A stretch of DNA of 32,135 nucleotides from positions 1 to 32,135 of the forward strand of contig NZ_KB898956.1 in NCBI RefSeq assembly GCF_000377945.1, written 5' to 3'. The notes beneath the pieces are model-generated. The model ran no database searches and was not told the origin of the DNA. It worked only from the letters and a program-made list of their open reading frames with translations. The position numbers were made by a program, and so were the translations under genes. Origin of the DNA: Thioalkalivibrio sulfidiphilus (lineage in GTDB: Bacteria; Pseudomonadota; Gammaproteobacteria; Ectothiorhodospirales; Ectothiorhodospiraceae). Of this stretch, positions 4,129 through 13,311 are shown one piece after another (position 1 is the stretch's first letter; each line of letters starts with the position of its first letter).

Positions 4129-5685
4129 ATGAGCAGTCCATCCCCAACCCTGGAGAACGCCGGCCTGACCGGCGAACTGCGCGAGGAACTGGCGGCCCAG
4201 ATCCCGGGCCCGGAGCAGGGCCTGAGTTTCGGCTTCGCCCGCCGCCACGGCGTGGTCATCCTGCAGGAGACCTTTTCACCCGGCCAGCCGGTGAGCATCG
4301 CCTGCAGGCAGGCGGTGAGCAGCCAGACCCTGGCGGAGCTGCGACGGCATCTGGGCTGTCCCCTGCGCATCGAGGCGGTCAGCGACGCGCGCTTCGACGC
4401 CCTGCTGCGGGAACGCTACGAGCGCAGCTCCAGCGACGCCATGCAGCTCATGGGCGACATGGGCGAGGAAGACCTGGACAGCGTGGCGCGCAGTCTGTCG
4501 GAGCCCGAGGACCTGCTGGAAACCGAGGATGACGCGCCCATCATCCGGCTCATCAACGCCCTGCTCACGGAGGCGGTGAAGGAAAACGCCTCGGACATCC
4601 ACATCGAGCCCTTCGAGAATCGCCTCACGGTGCGTTTCCGCGTGGACGGCGTGCTGCGCCAGGTACTGGAACCGCCCCGGGTGCTGGCGCCGCTGATCAC
4701 CTCGCGCATCAAGGTCATGGCGCGCCTGGACATCGCCGAGAAGCGTCTGCCCCAGGACGGACGCATCTCGCTCAAGGTGGCCGGTCGGGCCGTGGACGTG
4801 CGTGTCTCCACCCTGCCCTCCGGTCACGGCGAGCGGGTGGTGCTGCGTCTGCTGGACAAGCAGGCCGGGCGCCTGGACCTGGTGCAGCTGGGCATGGATG
4901 ACCGCACCCTCAAGGTGATGCAGCGCGCCATCCACCGGCCCCACGGCATCATCCTGGTCACCGGCCCCACCGGTTCCGGCAAGACCACCACCCTCTATGC
5001 GGTGCTCACCCAGTTGAACGACCGCAGCCGCAACATCCTCACCGTGGAAGACCCCATCGAGTACGATCTCGACGGCATCGGCCAGACCCAGATCAACCCC
5101 AAGGTGGAGATGACCTTCGCCCGGGGTCTGCGCGCCATCCTGCGCCAGGACCCGGACGTGGTGATGGTGGGCGAGATCCGCGACCTGGAGACGGTGCAGA
5201 TCGCCGTGCAGGCCTCGCTGACCGGTCACCTGGTGCTCTCCACCCTGCACACCAACACCGCCGTGGGTGCTATCACCCGTCTGCGGGATATGGGCGTGGA
5301 GCCCTTCCTGCTGTCCTCGACCGTCGTGGCGATCCTGGCCCAGCGCCTGGTGCGCGTGCTGTGCGAGCAGTGCAAGGAGCCCTATGCGGCCGGCGAGACC
5401 GAGTGCGAGCTGATCGGCCTGGCCAAGGAGCCGCCGCCCACCCTCTATCGCGCCGTGGGTTGTGACCACTGCAACGGCCTCGGCTACCGTGGCCGAACCG
5501 GTATCTACGAATTGGTGGAAGTGGACGATGCCCTGCGCAACCTGATCCACGACGGCGCCGGCGAGCAGCAACTGGAACGCCACGCCCGCGCCCACGGCCC
5601 CAGCATCCGCGCCGACGGCCGGCGCCGCGTCCTCGCCGGCCAGACCACGGTGGAGGAAGTGCTGCGTGTGACGAAGGAAGACTAG
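4129..5685 (+). CDS. gspE: Type II secretion ATPase GspE
   Basis: GspE is the cytoplasmic hexameric ATPase that powers pseudopilus assembly. The 518-residue product has the N1E/N2E-type N-terminal region that binds GspL (residues 1 to about 110), then the catalytic core: Walker [11 protein letters not shown] with K285, the Asp box ([18 protein letters not shown]), Walker B ([15 protein letters not shown]) and the His box ([13 protein letters not shown]). A four-cysteine zinc motif is present (C412, C415, C445, C448), as in classical GspE proteins. The ATG at 4129 is chosen because the conserved protein starts there; the open frame continues upstream only as an out-of-frame shadow of gspD. Unlike most downstream gsp junctions, there is no overlap with gspF: a 111-base repeat-rich spacer intervenes, and its first repeat unit begins on the base after the stop codon. 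Confidence 0.97.
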
Positions 5686-5786
5686 TGGCAAGTCTCAAGT
5701 GGCTAGTGGCAAGGAAACTGCTTTCGCGCACAGCGCGAAACCGTGCCTTTTGCTGTGCCTTGCCACTAGCCACTAGCCACTTGCCA
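5686..5786. repeat. Palindromic element made of 7-base repeat arrays (gspE-gspF spacer)
   Basis: Four tandem 7-base units of the form TGGCAAG/TGGCTAG occupy 5686-5713 (one unit is degenerate, TCTCAAG). Four units in the opposite orientation (CTTGCCA/CTAGCCA) occupy 5759-5786. Between them lies a perfect inner hairpin, TTTCGCGC at 5722-5729 and GCGCGAAA at 5733-5740 with a three-base loop. Transcribed, the whole element could fold into one long hairpin in the middle of the gsp messenger. The first unit abuts the gspE stop codon. There is no open frame and no terminator-type T-run. Confidence 0.85.
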
Positions 5787-5787
5787 C

Positions 5788-5815
5788 TGTATTCAAATGC
5801 CCGCATTTGAATACA
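5788..5815. promoter_or_regulatory. Perfect 13-base palindrome covering the gspF start codon
   Basis: Bases 5788-5800 and 5803-5815 are exact inverted copies (TGTATTCAAATGC and its complement) separated by two bases. The gspF ATG at 5797-5799 lies inside the left arm, and no Shine-Dalgarno sequence precedes it. If formed in RNA, the hairpin would sequester the start codon. The right arm is also coding sequence for the conserved GspF residues AFEYT. Regulatory function is inference; the palindrome itself is directly visible. Confidence 0.6.
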
Positions 5816-7011
5816 CCGCCCTGAACCCCAAAGGCCGCGAGGTCCGGGGCGTCCTGGAAGGGGACACGCCGCGCCAGGTGCGTCAGCAGCTGCGCGAGGG
5901 CGGGCTCACGCCGTTGGAGGTGGAGGAGGTCAAGAGCCGGGAAGGGCGCCGCGTGCGCATGCCGGGTCTGGGCCGTGGCATCAGCGCCATGGACCTGGCC
6001 CTGCTCACCCGCCAGCTGGCCACCCTGGTGCGTTCCGGCCTGCCCATCGAGGAGGCCCTGGGCACGGTGGCGCGCCAGAGCGAGAAGCCGCGCATTCGCA
6101 GCATGCTCATGGCGGTACGCACCCGGGTGATGGAGGGGCACACCCTGGCCCGGGGCCTGTCCGACTTCCCCCACGTGTTCCCCGACATCTACCGCACCAC
6201 CGTGGAGGCGGGCGAACAGTCCGGCCACCTGGAGGTGGTGCTGGAGCGTCTGGCCGACTACACGGAAAACCGCCAGCAGATGCGCCAGAAGATCCAGCTG
6301 GCCCTGTTCTATCCCGCCATCCTCACCGCCATGGCGCTGCTGGTGACCATCGCCCTGCTGGCCTACGTGGTGCCGGAGGTGGTGCAGGTCTTCGAGGGTA
6401 TCGGCCAGGAGCTGCCCTGGCTGACCCGCACCCTGATCGCTGTCAGTGACGGCCTGCGGGACTACGGCCTGTGGATGCTGCTCGGCCTGGTGCTGGCCGG
6501 CATGGCCGCCGGCTGGCTGCTCAAGAAGCCCGGACCGCGTACCGCCTGGCACCGGATCATCCTGCGCATGCCGCTGGCCGGGCGCATGGCCCGGGGTATG
6601 AACACCGCCCGCTTCGCCCGCACCCTGTCCATCCTCTCCGCCAGCGGCGTGTCCGTGCTGGAGGCCCTGCGCATCTCCGCCCAGGTGGTGGCCAGCCTGC
6701 CCATGCGCGATGCCATCCAGACCGTGGCCCAGCGGGTGCGCGAGGGCTCCGGCATCGGCAACGCCCTGGAGCGCACCGGCTATTTCCCGCCCATCACCGT
6801 GCATCTCATCAAGAGCGGCGAGGCCAGCGGCAGCCTGGACGCCATGCTGGAGCGCGCGGCGGTGAACCAGGAGCGGGAACTGGAATCGCGCATCGGCATG
6901 CTCATGGGCATCCTGGAGCCGGTGCTGATCCTGGTCATGGGCCTGGTGGTGCTGGTGATCGTGCTGGCCATCCTGCTGCCCATCTTCGAACTCAACCAGC
7001 TGGTGAACTGA
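5797..7011 (+). CDS. gspF: Type II secretion inner-membrane platform protein GspF
   Basis: GspF is the polytopic inner-membrane core of the secretion platform and works with GspE and GspL in pseudopilus assembly. The 404-residue product has the usual two T2SSF domains. The first is cytoplasmic (about residues 65-190, with LALLTRQLATLVRSGLPIEEAL), the second repeats it (about 270-390, with TARFARTLSILSASGVSVLEAL), and each is followed by membrane helices (near 165-195, 220-240 and 370-395). The start at 5797 matches the conserved N-terminus MPAFEYTALNPKGREVRGVL, although it lies inside a palindrome and lacks a ribosome site, which is unusual for an operon-internal gene. The next gene begins only two bases after its stop, so the lipoprotein gene is probably translated from the same messenger. 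Confidence 0.97.
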   Translation: MPAFEYTALNPKGREVRGVLEGDTPRQVRQQLREGGLTPLEVEEVKSREGRRVRMPGLGRGISAMDLALLTRQLATLVRSGLPIEEALGTVARQSEKPRIRSMLMAVRTRVMEGHTLARGLSDFPHVFPDIYRTTVEAGEQSGHLEVVLERLADYTENRQQMRQKIQLALFYPAILTAMALLVTIALLAYVVPEVVQVFEGIGQELPWLTRTLIAVSDGLRDYGLWMLLGLVLAGMAAGWLLKKPGPRTAWHRIILRMPLAGRMARGMNTARFARTLSILSASGVSVLEALRISAQVVASLPMRDAIQTVAQRVREGSGIGNALERTGYFPPITVHLIKSGEASGSLDAMLERAAVNQERELESRIGMLMGILEPVLILVMGLVVLVIVLAILLPIFELNQLVN

Positions 7012-7013
7012 AC

Positions 7014-7367
7014 ATGGATGGACGTCGTCGCGTGTTTCTGGCAGCACTGTTGGCCCTGGCCGCCTCGGGCTGCCGACTGGATGTCTCCCCTTCTGAGGAG
7101 GAGGCGCGCATCCTGCGCATCATCGTCATGCCGACTCCGGAGGGCGGCCTTGACCCAGCCTCGTCGGAGGGCCTCGACCGTCTGTCCAGGGCCGCTGGAA
7201 CGCAACTGGTCCATGTGCGTCCAATGAGCGGTGGAGGACACGTGCTGGTCACCGCCGAGCCGGTGCCCCTGTCACGGATAGAGGCCATCCTCCAGCGGCT
7301 GGCGGCCGATCCCGCCATCGCGTATGCGGAAGAAGACCGCCGCGTCACGCACCAGTCCCCGGAATAG
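7014..7367 (+). CDS. Small lipoprotein resembling a free-standing subtilase propeptide (I9-like)
   Basis: A 117-residue protein with a lipoprotein signal (LAALLALAASGC, lipobox AASGC, cysteine at about residue 20). The residue after the cysteine is Arg, not Asp, so the usual sorting rule favours the outer membrane. The remainder has the layout of a subtilase propeptide/I9 inhibitor domain and is visibly related to the propeptide of the protease encoded directly downstream: RIIVM / RIIIKV, VHVRPMSGGGHVL / VYLRAMSGGADVV and YAEEDRRV / YAEPDARV line up in the same order and spacing. It lacks a catalytic domain and ends with its own stop codon four bases before the protease ATG. Inferred role: a membrane-tethered inhibitor or folding chaperone of the neighbouring protease. 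It sits two bases after gspF, in the secretion operon. The homology to the propeptide is clear by eye; the function is a hypothesis. Confidence 0.75.
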   Translation: MDGRRRVFLAALLALAASGCRLDVSPSEEEARILRIIVMPTPEGGLDPASSEGLDRLSRAAGTQLVHVRPMSGGGHVLVTAEPVPLSRIEAILQRLAADPAIAYAEEDRRVTHQSPE

Positions 7368-7371
7368 GTCC

Positions 7372-9564
7372 ATGAAGCAAGCGCGCAAGACCTTGGGCAT
7401 CTTCGCCTTGGCGTTGATCTGCCTGGCTGTCTCGACCGTTCATGCAACCCCCACCGACCGGATCATCATCAAGGTGAGCGAGCCCATGCGTCCGGCTGTG
7501 CTGGCCGACGGCGCGCCGGCACCCCGCGCCCGTGAGCGGGTGTCGGCGTTGTCAGTCGCGGTCGGCCACGAGGTGGTCTACCTGCGCGCCATGTCCGGCG
7601 GTGCCGACGTGGTGCGGTTGCCTCGTGCCATGCCCCTGGAACAGGTGCAGGCCATGGCCGAGGCCATGGCGCGGTTGCCGGGGGTGGAGTATGCGGAGCC
7701 GGATGCGCGAGTTTTCCCAGCGCTGGAGCCGAACGACCCGCTTTATGATGATCCGAATCCGAACGCGCTTAGGCAGTGGTATTTGGATTCTCTCAACAAT
7801 GAGCCCTATGGCATCAATGCACCCGTAGCATGGGCTGAAACCACCGGTGATGCCGTGGTAGTGGCGGTAGTGGATACGGGTATTCGATTCACCCATGAAG
7901 ATCTGGTCGGTAAGGTGCTGCCGGGCTATGACTTCGTAAGCGAAGATATTAGTGGGGAATTTTTTACCGCCAATGATGGAGATGGGCGTGATCGTAATGC
8001 TACAGATCCAGGCGACTGGGTCACCGAAAGAGAGGTGTCCAGACCGGATTGCCCTGTGGATAAGGCCTACAACAGTTCCTGGCATGGAACTCATGTGGCC
8101 GGCATCATCGGGGCAGCTTCAAACAATGGGATAGGTGTGGCGGGAGTAAGTTGGGGGGCAATGGTTCTTCCGGTCAGGGGGCTGGGTAAGTGCGGCGGAT
8201 ATGTCTCAGACATTGCAGATGCAATCCGCTGGGCTGCCGGTGTGGATGATCAGGCCCTCCCACCCAATCCGTATCCCGCCAGGATTATCAATCTGAGTCT
8301 CGGCGGCGGGCAATGTACTCAAGAAGAAAGAGGCAGGACATGGCAGCGGGCCATTGATGACGCGTTAGAGCTCGATGTGTTAGTTGTCGCTGCCGCGGGC
8401 AATTCTGGCTCGAACTTGGATACAAGCCCCATGGCGCCCGCCAGTTGCAATGGCGTGCTGACTGTGGCAGCAACGGACAGAAACGGGCAAAGGGCTGTTT
8501 TCAATTTACAGCAATCGAGTAATTACGGATCAGCTGTTGATGTGGCAGCGCCTGGGATTTCGATACTTTCTACGATTGATTCAGGTACTAAATATCCATC
8601 AGCAGATGCCTACGCATTCTACTCCGGAACAAGTATGGCTGCGCCTATTGTGTCTGGCGTCGCAGCACTATTGTTGAGTCGTGCCCCTGATTTGACTCAG
8701 CAACAGCTATTCGAGTTGATCACAGATACCAATCATGTGACCCAATTTCCGGAAGGTTCCAGTTGCACGTCAGTAATTTGCGGCTCTGGCATCGTCAATG
8801 CTGCCTTGGCCGTTGCTTCGGTCACCGACGCTGAAGGGCGTCCAGGAACGCTGTTCGACTTTGCGCCGCTGGAGGGTGTCGGCAAGTCGCAGATTGTGAC
8901 CTCTGCAGAGGTGGTAGTGAACATTGCCGGGGATCCCTTGCAGATCAGCGTGCAGGGTGGAGAGTACAGTCTCGAAGGATGCGACGGAAGTTTCACCACG
9001 GCAGATGGAACTGTGTCCGATGGTGATAGTCTCTGTTTGCGTCACACAGCATCTGCCCTCCCTGATCATCCTGCCGCCACCTTGGTGACCGTAGGCAATT
9101 ACCGAGCTGCATTCGTGAGCATGACGGGTCCGGCGAACACCGATCCGGATCCGTTGACCGACTTTCTGCCCAAGGCTGGGGTTGATCCAGCTGTGTGGGT
9201 TGTCTCTGAGCCTGTGACTATCACTGGTATCGATGCTCCCGCCCGGGTGAGTGTTGTGGGTGGGCAGTACAGCCTGGGTTGTGTGACTGCGGGCTATACG
9301 ACGGAACCGGGTTATGTGGCACCTGATGGCGACATTTGTGTGCGTCACCGGTCAGCCGCTACGGGGGAGACTTTGACGGTCACCACCGTGACCGTGGGCA
9401 GCCAGAGTGCGGAATTGACGAGTACCACACGTGCCGTCAGCAGTGGTGGCGGTGGTGGTGTGCTCTCGTTCTGGCTGTTCGGAATCTTGTTTGCTTATAC
9501 GGGTCTGTGTGTTCGGCGTAGCAGAAGGTATCCCCCCGCGGCCACCCCCGCCAGCGCCCCGTAA
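7372..9564 (+). CDS. Secreted S8 subtilisin-like protease with GlyGly-CTERM sorting signal
   Basis: A 730-residue serine protease, probably a type II secretion substrate. In order: Sec signal peptide (1 to about 25, ending STVHA), an I9-like propeptide (about 26-112), an S8 catalytic domain with Asp168 (VVDTGI), His238 (WHGTHVAG), oxyanion Asn344 (AAAGNSG) and Ser421 (GTSMAAP), then two related beta-rich repeats starting near residues 494 and 598 (each containing GG-YSL and a DGD-CxRH motif), then five glycines (692-696), a hydrophobic helix (697-714) and RRSRR (715-719). The glycine run, helix and basic cluster match the GlyGly-CTERM signal cut by rhombosortases. An 11-residue Pro/Ala-rich tail after the basic cluster is unusual. 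I chose the ATG at 7372 for its signal peptide. The catalytic domain is far less GC-rich than the propeptide and neighbouring genes. The 3' end overlaps the rhombosortase gene by 70 bases on the opposite strand. Confidence 0.92.
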   Translation: MKQARKTLGIFALALICLAVSTVHATPTDRIIIKVSEPMRPAVLADGAPAPRARERVSALSVAVGHEVVYLRAMSGGADVVRLPRAMPLEQVQAMAEAMARLPGVEYAEPDARVFPALEPNDPLYDDPNPNALRQWYLDSLNNEPYGINAPVAWAETTGDAVVVAVVDTGIRFTHEDLVGKVLPGYDFVSEDISGEFFTANDGDGRDRNATDPGDWVTEREVSRPDCPVDKAYNSSWHGTHVAGIIGAASNNGIGVAGVSWGAMVLPVRGLGKCGGYVSDIADAIRWAAGVDDQALPPNPYPARIINLSLGGGQCTQEERGRTWQRAIDDALELDVLVVAAAGNSGSNLDTSPMAPASCNGVLTVAATDRNGQRAVFNLQQSSNYGSAVDVAAPGISILSTIDSGTKYPSADAYAFYSGTSMAAPIVSGVAALLLSRAPDLTQQQLFELITDTNHVTQFPEGSSCTSVICGSGIVNAALAVASVTDAEGRPGTLFDFAPLEGVGKSQIVTSAEVVVNIAGDPLQISVQGGEYSLEGCDGSFTTADGTVSDGDSLCLRHTASALPDHPAATLVTVGNYRAAFVSMTGPANTDPDPLTDFLPKAGVDPAVWVVSEPVTITGIDAPARVSVVGGQYSLGCVTAGYTTEPGYVAPDGDICVRHRSAATGETLTVTTVTVGSQSAELTSTTRAVSSGGGGGVLSFWLFGILFAYTGLCVRRSRRYPPAATPASAP

Positions 9565-10076
9565 AGATGCGCCTCCACGATCACCGCGCCGCCGATGAGT
9601 TGCGCGATGCCGGGGTCCTGGCCGGTGGACTGCTCCCAGGCGAGCTTGGCGATCAGGCCGAGCAGCAGCAGGCCCAGGCAGGGCTGGCGCTTTAAACCAG
9701 CCAGGGCGCCGGCCGCCAACAGGCCGTGCAGGATGCCGGACAGGCCCACGTACCAAGCCACCGTAGGTGAAAAGGCCAGCAGTCCCAGGTTCACGCCCGC
9801 CCCGCAGATCAGCACCGTCAGCCACCATTGTGCCGGCGAGAGGTTGCGGGCAAGGATGAACCAGATGAGGGTGAGCCCAGCTAGATTCATGGCGAGATGA
9901 ATCCAGCCCAGGTGCATGAGCTGGCCGGTGACCAGCCGCCAGGGCTGTTCCAGCCAGAGTCCCCGCTCCAGCCGCAGGGCCTCCAGGCCGCCGAAGGCCT
10001 GGGCCAGCAGGGCGGCCAGGGCCAGCGTGAGAGGCAGCGCCCAGCGTGCCAGGCGCGGTTTTGCCGGGTTGTTCAT
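9495..10076 (-). CDS. rrtA: Rhombosortase, intramembrane serine protease for GlyGly-CTERM proteins
   Basis: A 193-residue, roughly six-helix rhomboid-family protease. The catalytic pair is Ser113 in GLSGILHG and His169 in EAHLYGALAG; HLAMN (H60, N64) on an earlier helix matches the rhomboid oxyanion region. The short length without extra domains and the EAH motif fit rhombosortases, which cleave GlyGly-CTERM tails near the glycines after export and hand the protein to the type II secretion route. Its expected substrate is encoded next to it on the opposite strand, and the two genes overlap tail to tail by 70 bases (9495-9564). The overlap encodes rhombosortase residues from about 171 to the end, that is, the last helix after the catalytic His. 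The gene runs against the gsp operon and starts 62 bases from gspG on the other strand, so gspG-N probably needs a separate promoter or read-through. A general GlpG-like rhomboid is the main alternative, but context favours rhombosortase. Confidence 0.88.
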   Translation of the reverse strand: MNNPAKPRLARWALPLTLALAALLAQAFGGLEALRLERGLWLEQPWRLVTGQLMHLGWIHLAMNLAGLTLIWFILARNLSPAQWWLTVLICGAGVNLGLLAFSPTVAWYVGLSGILHGLLAAGALAGLKRQPCLGLLLLGLIAKLAWEQSTGQDPGIAQLIGGAVIVEAHLYGALAGVAAGGYLLLRRTHRPV

Positions 10077-10138
10077 GCAGCCGCCATGACAAAGTGTCAG
10101 ACTATCGAAACAGGAACGAACGAGGTAGTGATCGAATC

Positions 10139-10588
10139 ATGAACTACAGCATCGCACACAAACCCCGCCGCATGGGCGGCTTCACCCTCATCGAGGTCAT
10201 GGTGGTTGTCGTGATCCTCGGCATTCTGGCCGCCATCGTGGTGCCGCGCATCATGGACCGGCCCGACGAGGCCCGTATCGCCAAGGCGCGCAACGACATT
10301 CGCACCCTGGAACAGGCCCTGAACCTCTACCGGCTGGACAACTTCCGCTATCCCACCACCGAGCAGGGCCTGCGCGCCCTGGTGGAACGGCCAACCACGT
10401 CGCCCGAGCCTCGCAACTGGCGTGCCGGCGGCTACCTGGACCGCCTGCCCATGGATCCCTGGGGCAACCCCTACGAATACGCCCATCCCGGTCGCCATGG
10501 CGAGATCGACATCTACAGCCTCGGCGCGGACGGCCGTCCCGGTGGTGATGGCGCGGATGCCGACATCGGCAACTGGAACATCAACTGA
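10139..10588 (+). CDS. gspG: Type II secretion major pseudopilin GspG
   Basis: The major subunit of the periplasmic pseudopilus that pushes substrates through the secretin. The 149-residue precursor has a 14-residue leader ending MGG and a type IV prepilin cleavage site before FTLIEVMVVVVILGILAA, with the conserved Glu5 after cleavage. The C-terminal domain shows classic GspG features: YPTTEQGLRALV, the PMDPWGNPYEY loop and an Asp/Gly-rich calcium-binding end (IYSLGADGRPGGDG, then IGNWN). I chose the ATG at 10139 because it gives the proper short leader; GAGGT lies upstream, though somewhat far. This is the first gene of the second half of the operon, divergent from the rhombosortase gene. 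Confidence 0.97.
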   Translation: MNYSIAHKPRRMGGFTLIEVMVVVVILGILAAIVVPRIMDRPDEARIAKARNDIRTLEQALNLYRLDNFRYPTTEQGLRALVERPTTSPEPRNWRAGGYLDRLPMDPWGNPYEYAHPGRHGEIDIYSLGADGRPGGDGADADIGNWNIN

Positions 10589-12206: not shown

Positions 12207-13000
12207 GAACCGCACCGCGTCGGCAACGGGGCGTGGCCCTGATCACCGCGCTGCTGGTGGTGGTGCTGGCCACCCTGGCGGCGGTGGCCATGGTGGCACG
12301 CCAGCACCTGGACATCCGCCGCGCGGGCAACATGCTGGGCCAGGATCAGGCCTACCTCATCGCGCTGGCCGCCGAGGGCTATGCCCTGCGCCTGCTGTCC
12401 TCGGATGACCGCGACTTGCCCTGGGAGGGTTGTATCTCTCCCCCCCTGTGGGTGACCCTTGAAGAGGCGCAGATGGAGATCTGGCTCGAGGACATGCACT
12501 GCCGGTTCAACCTCAACAACCTGGCGGCGCGGGACGATGCGGCGGCCAATGGTTTCATCCGACTGCTGGAGGGTGTGCGCTCCCGGACCCCGGACCTGTC
12601 CCTGGACCCGGAGGGACTCACCGCGGCGGTGCGCGACTGGATGAATCCGGAGACCGATGATCCGTACTATCGGCTGGCGACGCCGCCGTACCTGAGCGCG
12701 AACCGCCCGATGATCGTGGCCGCGGAACTGCGCCGGGTGCAGGGCATGAACAATGAACTCTGGCAGGCCTTGTCGCCCTACGTCACCGCCCTGCCCGCCA
12801 CCGGCACCACCATGAACCTGGAGTTCGCCGAAGAGGTGCTGCAGGACGCGTTCCCGGATCGTGGCGAGGTGGTGGCCTCGCGGTTCTTCCGCCTGGGCGT
12901 GCATGCGGAACTGGGCGGGCGGCGCTTCCTGCTGTGCAGCCTGCTGGACACCGGCAACATCAGCGTGGTGTGGCGCAGCCAGTCGATGTGTGAAGATTGA
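12203..13000 (+). CDS. gspK: Type II secretion minor pseudopilin GspK
   Basis: GspK caps the pseudopilus tip. The 265-residue precursor has a 10-residue basic leader ending RQRG before VALITALLVVVLATLAAVAM; as usual in GspK, the Glu5 of other pseudopilins is absent. The large insertion domain follows, with RFNLNNLA, AAVRDWMNPETDDPYYR (the calcium/helical region) and the helix-hairpin-helix-like AELRRVQGMNNELWQALSPYVT. It is on the short side for the family, which often exceeds 300 residues, but no key block is missing. After its stop the coupled arrangement ends: 311 non-coding bases full of repeats separate it from gspL. Confidence 0.95.
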   Translation: MRTAPRRQRGVALITALLVVVLATLAAVAMVARQHLDIRRAGNMLGQDQAYLIALAAEGYALRLLSSDDRDLPWEGCISPPLWVTLEEAQMEIWLEDMHCRFNLNNLAARDDAAANGFIRLLEGVRSRTPDLSLDPEGLTAAVRDWMNPETDDPYYRLATPPYLSANRPMIVAAELRRVQGMNNELWQALSPYVTALPATGTTMNLEFAEEVLQDAFPDRGEVVASRFFRLGVHAELGGRRFLLCSLLDTGNISVVWRSQSMCED

Positions 13001-13013
13001 AGGAAGGCGCAGA

Positions 13014-13072
13014 GGCAAGATACAAGATGCAAGAGACAAGAAATCGTGGGTCGGGCTGAAGCCCGACCTACG
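13014..13072. repeat. 7-base repeat array plus GGTCGGGC hairpin (gspK-gspL spacer, first part)
   Basis: Four tandem 7-base units of the pattern NNCAAGA lie at 13014-13041, starting 13 bases after the gspK stop. They are followed by a near-perfect hairpin, 13045-13056 pairing with 13061-13072 (core GGTCGGGC/GCCCGACC, loop TGAA, one G-T pair). The same hairpin sequence occurs twice more in the gspM-gspN spacer, so it is a dispersed repeat. Confidence 0.8.
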
Positions 13073-13149
13073 AGTCTGATGGCATGGAGAAGGATGTATT
13101 GGGGATGCGTATGTCCAACATCACATGCTCGAACTTACGAAAAGCGGTC

Positions 13150-13224
13150 CTCTCACAGTGACACGGAGACACGGGGAATGCGCAATGATGGATCTTACTC
13201 CGTGTCCCCGTGCCTCCGTGAGAG
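13150..13224. repeat. Palindromic repeat with 8-base period, CTCTCAC-type (gspK-gspL spacer, second part)
   Basis: The left arm (about 13150-13176) and right arm (about 13198-13224) pair at 22 of 27 positions around a loop of about 20 bases. Within the arms the motif (G/C)ACACGG(A/G) recurs every eight bases. Two further elements of the same type lie at 26757-26830 and 26871-26936. The remainder of the gspK-gspL spacer (13073-13149 and 13225-13311) shows no gene and no clear promoter. Confidence 0.75.
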
Positions 13225-13311
13225 AATAGGTTTTCGATTCACTCGTAGCAATTCGAAGTCAGTGATCGATGTAATCATCTGGACGAGCAATATGAATCGG
13301 TGCGCATTGCC

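Follow-up and report, generated by a model that had tools for sequence, protein, structure and literature searches.

The three genes considered here, coding for a lipoprotein with sequence homology to subtilase propeptides, an S8 protease with a GlyGly-CTERM-like tail and a rhombosortase, lie between gspF and gspG of a type II secretion system (T2SS) cluster in Thioalkalivibrio sulfidiphilus (contig NZ_KB898956.1 of assembly GCF_000377945.1, positions 1 to 32,135 of the forward strand; this stretch of 32,135 nucleotides is hereafter the window). The closest described counterpart is the rhombosortase/GlyGly-CTERM system (Haft and Varghese 2011), represented by VesB and RssP of Vibrio cholerae. 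The surface location of VesB requires the GlyGly-CTERM tail, rhombosortase and the T2SS, and the protein is cut to expose a Gly and gains a glycerophosphoethanolamine-containing group (PMC6219818). The tail is functional on other passengers, a second export signal being required (PMC13393428); active VesC, a GlyGly-CTERM protease as well, harms through its activity the cells unable to export it, the T2SS mutants (PMC7771236). No evidence was found that rhombosortase singles out a subclass of T2SS, and it lies within one gene of its target in 16 out of 21 single-target genomes (Haft and Varghese 2011, PMC3237569).

The window locus is like this system in the enzyme family, in the Gly-run, helix and basic tail carried by a secreted protease, and in the co-occurrence with a T2SS; the adjacency of enzyme and target, already known for single-target genomes, is that of most of them. 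Accordingly, the statement of the first-pass annotation, made from the sequence alone, that such genes are usually scattered holds for many-target genomes and not for single-target ones. The differences are three: the locus is inside the T2SS cluster, with rhombosortase head-to-head with gspG; the tail is TIGR03501-negative and has 11 extra residues overlapping the rhombosortase gene; and there is a free lipoprotein propeptide, of which no mention was found in the available parts of the accounts of the known system. Together the genes probably form a dedicated unit by which a single S8 protease is exported and sorted.

The genes between gspF and gspG

The T2SS cluster of the window runs from gspC to gspM; GspC, D, E, F, G, H, I, J, K and L all score above the curated cut-offs, and the GspM match is weak (47.6 bits, cut-off 352). 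The first-pass annotation had placed a lipoprotein, an S8 protease and a rhomboid between gspF, which ends at 7011, and gspG, and these positions are borne out, with corrections: the start of gspG is at 10139, and the rhombosortase gene runs on the minus strand towards the S8 gene, the 3' ends of the two overlapping over 70 bp. As for the start of the S8 gene, the ATG at 7372 is the most likely one, because a signal peptide follows it, as against the first ATG of the open reading frame at 7324.

Regarding the rhomboid, the assignment to rhombosortases made earlier was open to a profile comparison that could have put the protein in the GlpG group, and that came out for TIGR03902 (149.6 bits, cut-off 84; GlpG model 17.3 bits, cut-off 250). 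At E 1e-3, TIGR03902 matches no other protein of the genome. The rhomboid carries the motifs GLSGILHG and EAHLYG; the catalytic Ser and His are present in 92 of 92 aligned rhombosortases, 82 of which have a His at +4 of the Ser. Judged by sequence, the window rhomboid is firmly a rhombosortase and not GlpG-like.

The S8 protease matches PF00082 with 201.4 bits, and its Asp, His and Ser motifs start at residues 164, 238 and 419. The protein ends in SSGGGGG, a helix and RRSRR, followed by 11 more residues, so that all elements of the GlyGly-CTERM architecture (Gly motif, transmembrane helix, C-terminal basic cluster and signal peptide) are present by sequence and by a rule-based check, the signal peptide by eye; Gly-run, helix and Arg cluster are retained across the genus although the remaining S8 protein diverges. 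In the G002 orthologue (L034), the tail reaches 26.7 bits with TIGR03867 (cut-off 19.7), the tail of the GlyGly-CTERM form of the MprA protease according to NCBIfam, and 13.7 bits with TIGR03501 (cut-off 15.5), whereas the tail of the window protein has no TIGR03867 match; the other S8 tails scanned are below all such tail-profile cut-offs, except for JDVT-CTERM in G217. At the same place in G080, the S8 proteases end in Gly-run tails whose length is canonical.

The S8 and rhombosortase genes overlap tail-to-tail by 70 bp in all four genus loci and by 73 bp in both loci of family f86, the G004 overlap being counted on an out-of-frame tail. Four of these loci were compared at the codon level, and in them the stop codon of S8 lies opposite, in antisense, to the codons for Tyr and Leu in AHLYG, beside the catalytic His; the 11 extra residues that follow the Arg cluster are explained by this arrangement. 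No earlier description of this codon-level interlock was found in the available parts of the literature searched.

The first-pass annotation had proposed a survey of relatives for the gene order, and the order is kept: gspF, propeptide, S8, rhombosortase (other strand) and gspG succeed each other in all four T2SS-bearing genomes of the genus and in two genomes of f86. This T2SS (gspF 88-100% identical) and the rhombosortase are present in four of five genus genomes; for the fifth, only distant gspF-like matches (33% and 31%) were obtained, and rhombosortase was not found.

Between G000 and G004, the DNA of the T2SS flanks is mostly 85-98% identical, the mature S8 region 53-78% with large gaps, the S8 leader and prodomain 92%, and the lipoprotein gene 75%; along the rhombosortase gene, read 5' to 3', identity declines from 97% to 75%. 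The corresponding protein identities are 62% for S8, 73.5% for the lipoprotein, 84.8% for rhombosortase, 98.8% for gspF and 98% for gspG. The G+C content at 7601-8800 is 47-61%, that of the T2SS genes mostly 62-74%. For the two f86 genomes, the figures are 73% for lipoprotein and S8, 87% for rhombosortase and 83-95% for the compared T2SS proteins, except for GspJ (72.6%, partial, 135 aa); in the close pair G001/G002, neither S8 (92.8%) nor the lipoprotein (91.6%) has clearly diverged more than gspC (92.5%). From these comparisons, the protease looks exchanged or fast-evolving, and the secretion machine does not.

Free propeptides and the proteases beside them

The reading of the lipoprotein as a free homologue of a subtilase propeptide, made earlier by inspection, was confirmed by BLASTP with the prodomain of the neighbouring S8 protease (45.4 bits, E 7e-11, 32% identity) and by shuffling, in which none of 2000 shuffles attained the score of the pair (z 14.5). 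No Pfam or NCBIfam family matched the window lipoprotein at E 1; a relative in L108 has 15.8 bits with PF22148, below the cut-off of 21. As for the fold, Foldseek found the subtilisin BPN' prosegment 1spb_P with probability 1.00, a TM of 0.66 by target and E 0.035 at rank 36, with unrelated folds scoring alike, and VIA-align gave the PCSK1 prodomain a Z of 7.5, equalled by unrelated ferredoxin-like folds; fold search was discarded as an identifier, since propeptides were not singled out among ferredoxin-like folds. The propeptide identity rests on sequence homology and not on the fold search.

All seven aligned copies, which come from three families and include the window one, have the lipobox Cys. 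A hydrophobic start followed by Cys occurs in all 11 standalone copies, from six family codes, in four of them as judged by eye, and each copy is beside an S8 gene that ends in a sorting-type tail. At +2 after the Cys, the aligned copies have Arg, Gln, Thr or Val and none has Asp, which by the Lol rule of Escherichia coli suggests that the lipoprotein is at the inner face of the outer membrane. A functionless remnant of a duplicated S8 gene would share homology with the neighbouring prodomain and evolve fast, as the lipoprotein does (73.5% between G000 and G004), but it would hardly keep the hydrophobic start and the Cys in 11 out of 11 copies placed by an S8 gene, so that this origin is very improbable.

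Described proteins resemble the lipoprotein in part. Stand-alone I9 inhibitors (yeast, Pleurotus, Arabidopsis, SUB1-ProM, TgMIC5; PMC6993865) also derive from a separate propeptide-like gene and are potent subtilase inhibitors in eukaryotes, and SUB1-ProM, like the lipoprotein, is encoded beside subtilase genes; the present protein instead is bacterial, lipidated by prediction, and has detectable homology to the prodomain of its neighbour. The type II chaperones LipB and CpaB (PMC4713064) share with it the position of a membrane-tethered, periplasm-facing helper encoded beside the T2SS effector, while the lipoprotein lacks an N-terminal transmembrane domain and is homologous to the effector's own prodomain. 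In Aeromonas sobria, ORF2 is the product of the neighbour gene of the secreted S8 protease ASP, and it is reported to be both chaperone and temporary inhibitor, acting via its C-terminal end at the active site (PMC5638518).

The lipoprotein may be a folding chaperone rather than an inhibitor, namely a membrane-anchored steric chaperone in the manner of LipB and CpaB. Such chaperones are membrane-anchored and encoded beside their effector, ORF2 combines both roles, and the homologous prodomain guides folding in cis; on the other hand, the protease already carries its own prodomain, so that it would seem to have less use for another guide to folding than for another inhibitor, and the anchor is a lipobox and not an N-terminal transmembrane helix. 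On this balance, a purely chaperone role is rather unlikely.

Regarding the occurrence of the pair elsewhere, a profile built from seven propeptides matched 25 of 369 genomes at E 1e-4, and the propeptide is standalone in eight (G000, G080, G131, G254, G259, G349, G217 and G072; four of them had rows in the search profile), always beside an S8 gene. The order in G080 is gspF, an S8 gene with Gly-run tail, the lipoprotein propeptide, a second tailed S8 gene, other open reading frames, and a rhombosortase head-to-head with gspG; in G259 it is gspF, S8 and propeptide, with rhombosortase and gspG on other contigs. In G349, S8 and propeptide are accompanied by a rhomboid whose 38.6 bits fall short of the rhombosortase cut-off. 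L163 has at 4467-7375, on one strand and away from the gspG-linked rhombosortase, an S8 gene with Gly-run tail, a lipoprotein propeptide and a rhomboid that is below both the rhombosortase and the GlpG cut-offs.

The same pair also occurs with the JDVT-CTERM/MrtJ system (NF033191, NF033192): in the f27 genomes G217 and G072, the lipoprotein propeptide accompanies an S8 protease with a Cys-containing tail, which matches JDVT-CTERM with 35.4 bits in G217 (cut-off 27) and is below the cut-off in G072 (9.3 bits for the whole protein, 15.6 for the tail alone), where MrtJ is the next gene (111.3 bits, cut-off 75). Propeptide and JDVT-CTERM-type S8 gene are paired at L165 5420-7805, with MrtJ next, and at L162 6051-8044, and the intramembrane protease concerned is another one. 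Gly-run tails with Cys, JDVT-like by eye, end the S8 proteases of L170, L175 and L180 as well; a free propeptide was not found in the stretches read.

A tail made of Gly-run, helix and basic cluster is carried by nine of nine S8 genes with an adjacent free propeptide and by four of 16 without (Fisher p 4.6e-4), under a tail rule that was not blind, as it was set after several tails had been seen, and that L162 missed by 0.01, this locus being counted by its JDVT-CTERM match. With one gene per genus, the figures are 7/7 and 4/13 (p 0.005). The comparison omits L034 (window's genus), L167 (no S8 by BLAST), L176 (S8 frame-split) and the second, repeat-rich S8-like row of L163. No earlier description of lipoprotein propeptides with tailed S8 proteases was found in the literature searched, as far as its available parts go.

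Rhombosortase beside gspG in other genomes

Of 47 genomes of the order, 14 had a TIGR03902 match at E 1e-18, and of 369 sampled from the class, 127 had one. Linkage was assessed in the 136 of these rhombosortase genomes that are outside the window's genus, own-genus genomes being excluded; the set includes fragmented assemblies, in which links may be missed, and one genome, G327, that is below the rhombosortase cut-off. A gspG match at E 1e-35 was obtained in 125 of the 136, and gspF was located as well. In 45 of the 136, no more than 6 kb separates rhombosortase from gspG, with the genes head-to-head in 43 and on the same strand in two, and the two profile matches are at most 546 bp apart in all but one of the 45. 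The head-to-head cases span 25 family codes, with a spacing between profile matches of 152-546 bp in 42 genomes, against a chance expectation of ~0.09 cases within 1 kb. Linkage within 6 kb is absent from 80 of the 125 rhombosortase genomes with a gspG match, and the ten rhombosortases that the set has from other genera of the window's family all lack a link to gspG. The view of a single insertion into the secretion operon, taken in the first-pass annotation, has to be given up: a rhombosortase adjacent to gspG is widespread, and the protease and propeptide cargo forms a second, rarer layer. No report of this neighbourhood was found in the available parts of the literature on rhombosortase, including that naming gspG.

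As for gspF, it is on the other side of rhombosortase in 13 gspG-linked genomes outside the genus, 8 kb off in G080; among the remaining 32 linked loci, rhombosortase was located in 28, and gspF was found in none of those 28 stretches, hence the constant partner is gspG onward. Two gammaproteobacterial metagenome-assembled genomes have rhombosortase between gspF and gspG, while UBA1844 and a metagenome-assembled genome of Steroidobacteraceae keep the rhombosortase-gspG order with a fabD-like gene (by eye), not gspF, next to it. A scan of named genomes with the window rhombosortase yielded only seven loci, three being weak matches in Verrucomicrobia-type records. Rhombosortase is upstream of gspC in G285, with gspG elsewhere in the cluster, and in G362 (L109) the 2.5 kb gap between gspF and rhombosortase is devoid of an S8 gene and codes for a 430-aa protein (7430-8722) with an LSGC lipobox-like start and no family match.

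On a quick tree of 92 rhombosortases, the linked state takes 12 changes, compared with a mean of 29.9 after shuffling and with none of 500 shuffles as low, so that linkage is clustered yet spread; starred branches force only three changes of state. The tree does not discriminate between a single old origin followed by losses and repeated gains; the grouping of the genus with eight of the ten unlinked rhombosortases of its family speaks against a simple old origin in the lineage.

The arrangement may reflect shared regulation only, that is, co-expression of the sorting enzyme and the pseudopilus with no physical link, and this explanation is given somewhat better than an even chance. It agrees with the head-to-head orientation and short spacing found in 42 genomes; taken alone, it leaves unexplained why rhombosortase keeps to the gspG half and often does without gspC-F, and it has against it the 80 genomes in which the two genes are unlinked.

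The features of the window locus are collected in Table 1.

Table 1. Features of the locus, with coordinates in the window
Feature	Coordinates	Strand	Remarks
gspF	5797..7011	+	upstream T2SS neighbour; TIGR02120 514.6 bits, cut-off 424
Free subtilase propeptide, lipoprotein	7014..7367	+	117 aa; lipobox Cys20, 98 aa from Cys; S8-prodomain homology
S8 protease	7372..9564	+	signal peptide (by eye), own prodomain, catalytic domain, C-terminal region, Gly5-helix-RRSRR tail and 11 residues
GlyGly-CTERM-like sorting tail, SSGGGGGVLSFWLFGILFAYTGLCVRRSRR	9439..9528	+	identified by sequence; its architecture recurs across the genus and at two f86 loci
Convergent S8/rhombosortase overlap, 70 bp	9495..9564	.	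S8 stop antisense to Leu-Tyr codons of AHLYG
Rhombosortase, 193 aa	9495..10076	-	Ser113, His117 signature, His170; TIGR03902 149.6 bits
Head-to-head intergenic region, 62 bp, with TGACAaagTGTCA palindrome	10077..10138	.	identified by sequence
gspG	10139..10588	+	opens the pseudopilin half-operon gspG-gspM; TIGR01710 204.2 bits

Regarding the non-coding parts, the TGACAaagTGTCA palindrome (window 10086-10100) is identical in G004 (L032) and not kept as such in the genus members further off, G002 and G001 (L034/L036). From the end of gspE to just before gspF (window 5684-5788) there is a 31-nt inverted repeat with AGTGGCTAGTGGCAAG-like units, whose arms are 90% complementary and 43 nt apart, and the gspK-gspL gap of ~300 bp (window 13000-13299) has two inverted repeats and a G+C content of 51%, against 66-74% around it.

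Proposed pathway and the evidence that bears on it

Several results speak against a dedicated unit for one protease. TIGR03501 has no match to the window tail even at E 10, whether the genome or pieces of the tail are searched, its cut-off is not reached by any other S8 tail scanned, and the 11 residues past the basic cluster exceed the canonical range of 0-5 (PMC3237569). An S8 gene between gspF and rhombosortase is found in only 3 of the 41 linked loci outside the genus in which rhombosortase was located; in G139, a tailed S8 gene follows gspF, and the stretch read did not show a free propeptide. The free propeptide of G080 is unlike the prodomain of the first S8 protease (z 0.3) and modestly like that of the second (z 5.1). 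Finally, the tail of the G004 protein (Gly-run, hydrophobic stretch, NNRR) is in another frame, behind a G-run.

The GlyGly-CTERM tail reported in the first-pass annotation is then upheld in its architecture and not by the TIGR03501 profile, the related TIGR03867 being reached only by the G002 orthologue; it should be noted that, according to Haft and Varghese, their own GlyGly-CTERM model misses some true members (PMC3237569). The count of other GlyGly-CTERM proteins in the genome, also proposed there, gave none with TIGR03501 at E 10, with a profile that misses the S8 tail too; the window genome is likely single-target for its rhombosortase.

Alternatively, the S8 tail would be an ordinary membrane anchor, or an accident of reading through into the overlapping rhombosortase gene, and the rhombosortase would serve other proteins. 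The TIGR03501 result, the position of the last S8 residues antisense to rhombosortase codons, and the lack of an S8 neighbour for most linked rhombosortases outside the genus are all compatible with it; the retention of Gly-run, helix and Arg cluster in the genus, the TIGR03867 score of the G002 orthologue, the empty TIGR03501 search in the rest of the genome and the canonical-length Gly-run tails of G080 make it improbable.

As for G004, it is taken to be T. sulfidiphilus HL-EbGr7, whose genome, sequenced by 454 plus Sanger (PMC3072093), was one of three with rhombosortase and without a recognised target; sequencing problems, decay or a divergent target were suggested as causes (Haft and Varghese 2011, PMC3237569). 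In G004, the S8 gene adjacent to rhombosortase stops early after ten Gs (L032 11449-11458), and the out-of-frame tail behind them offers an answer to this exception. The frame break may stem from an error in sequencing, from a genuine mutation or from a switch. Phase variation at the G-run was considered and set aside: it would concern one genome only, read by 454 plus Sanger, and mixed Gly codons encode the run in the three genus copies other than the HL-EbGr7-like one, which makes an error or a local mutation equally likely.

Returning to the dedicated export-and-sorting unit, a pathway is proposed from the gene identities, the prodomain homology, the lipoboxes, the tail architecture, the gene order and its conservation, and the rhombosortase-gspG linkage; all of its biochemical steps, the dependence on T2SS and rhombosortase included, are inferred. 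The signal peptide would take the S8 protease across the inner membrane, where the C-terminal helix would hold it, and the protease's own prodomain would fold and be its first inhibitor. Since active VesC trapped in T2SS mutants is harmful, a protease pausing in the inner membrane would need restraint: the tethered lipoprotein, a second prodomain copy on the periplasmic side, would cap the waiting protease, as an inhibitor and perhaps as a folding helper. Rhombosortase would then cleave the Gly-run tail and, as has been proposed for VesB of Vibrio cholerae, probably attach the C-terminus so exposed to a lipid. The T2SS would move the protease to the cell surface, the tethered cap staying behind.

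A broader reading is offered tentatively, with the odds judged to be rather against it: rhombosortase would be a regular T2SS partner in many bacteria, co-expressed with the pseudopilus or GspL-M side and perhaps acting there, which would couple tail cutting to pseudopilus loading, and S8 proteases paused in the inner membrane by a sorting tail would generally carry a safety catch, a lipoprotein copy of their own prodomain, with either rhombosortase or MrtJ.

In conclusion, a rhombosortase placed beside gspG in one third of the sampled rhombosortase genomes would be the mark of a T2SS subclass that was reported as unseen in 2011, and the rhombosortase-gspG order points to a link of tail processing with the pseudopilus. 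The pathway drawn for the window locus proposes, in addition, how the cell may survive an active protease held in its envelope.

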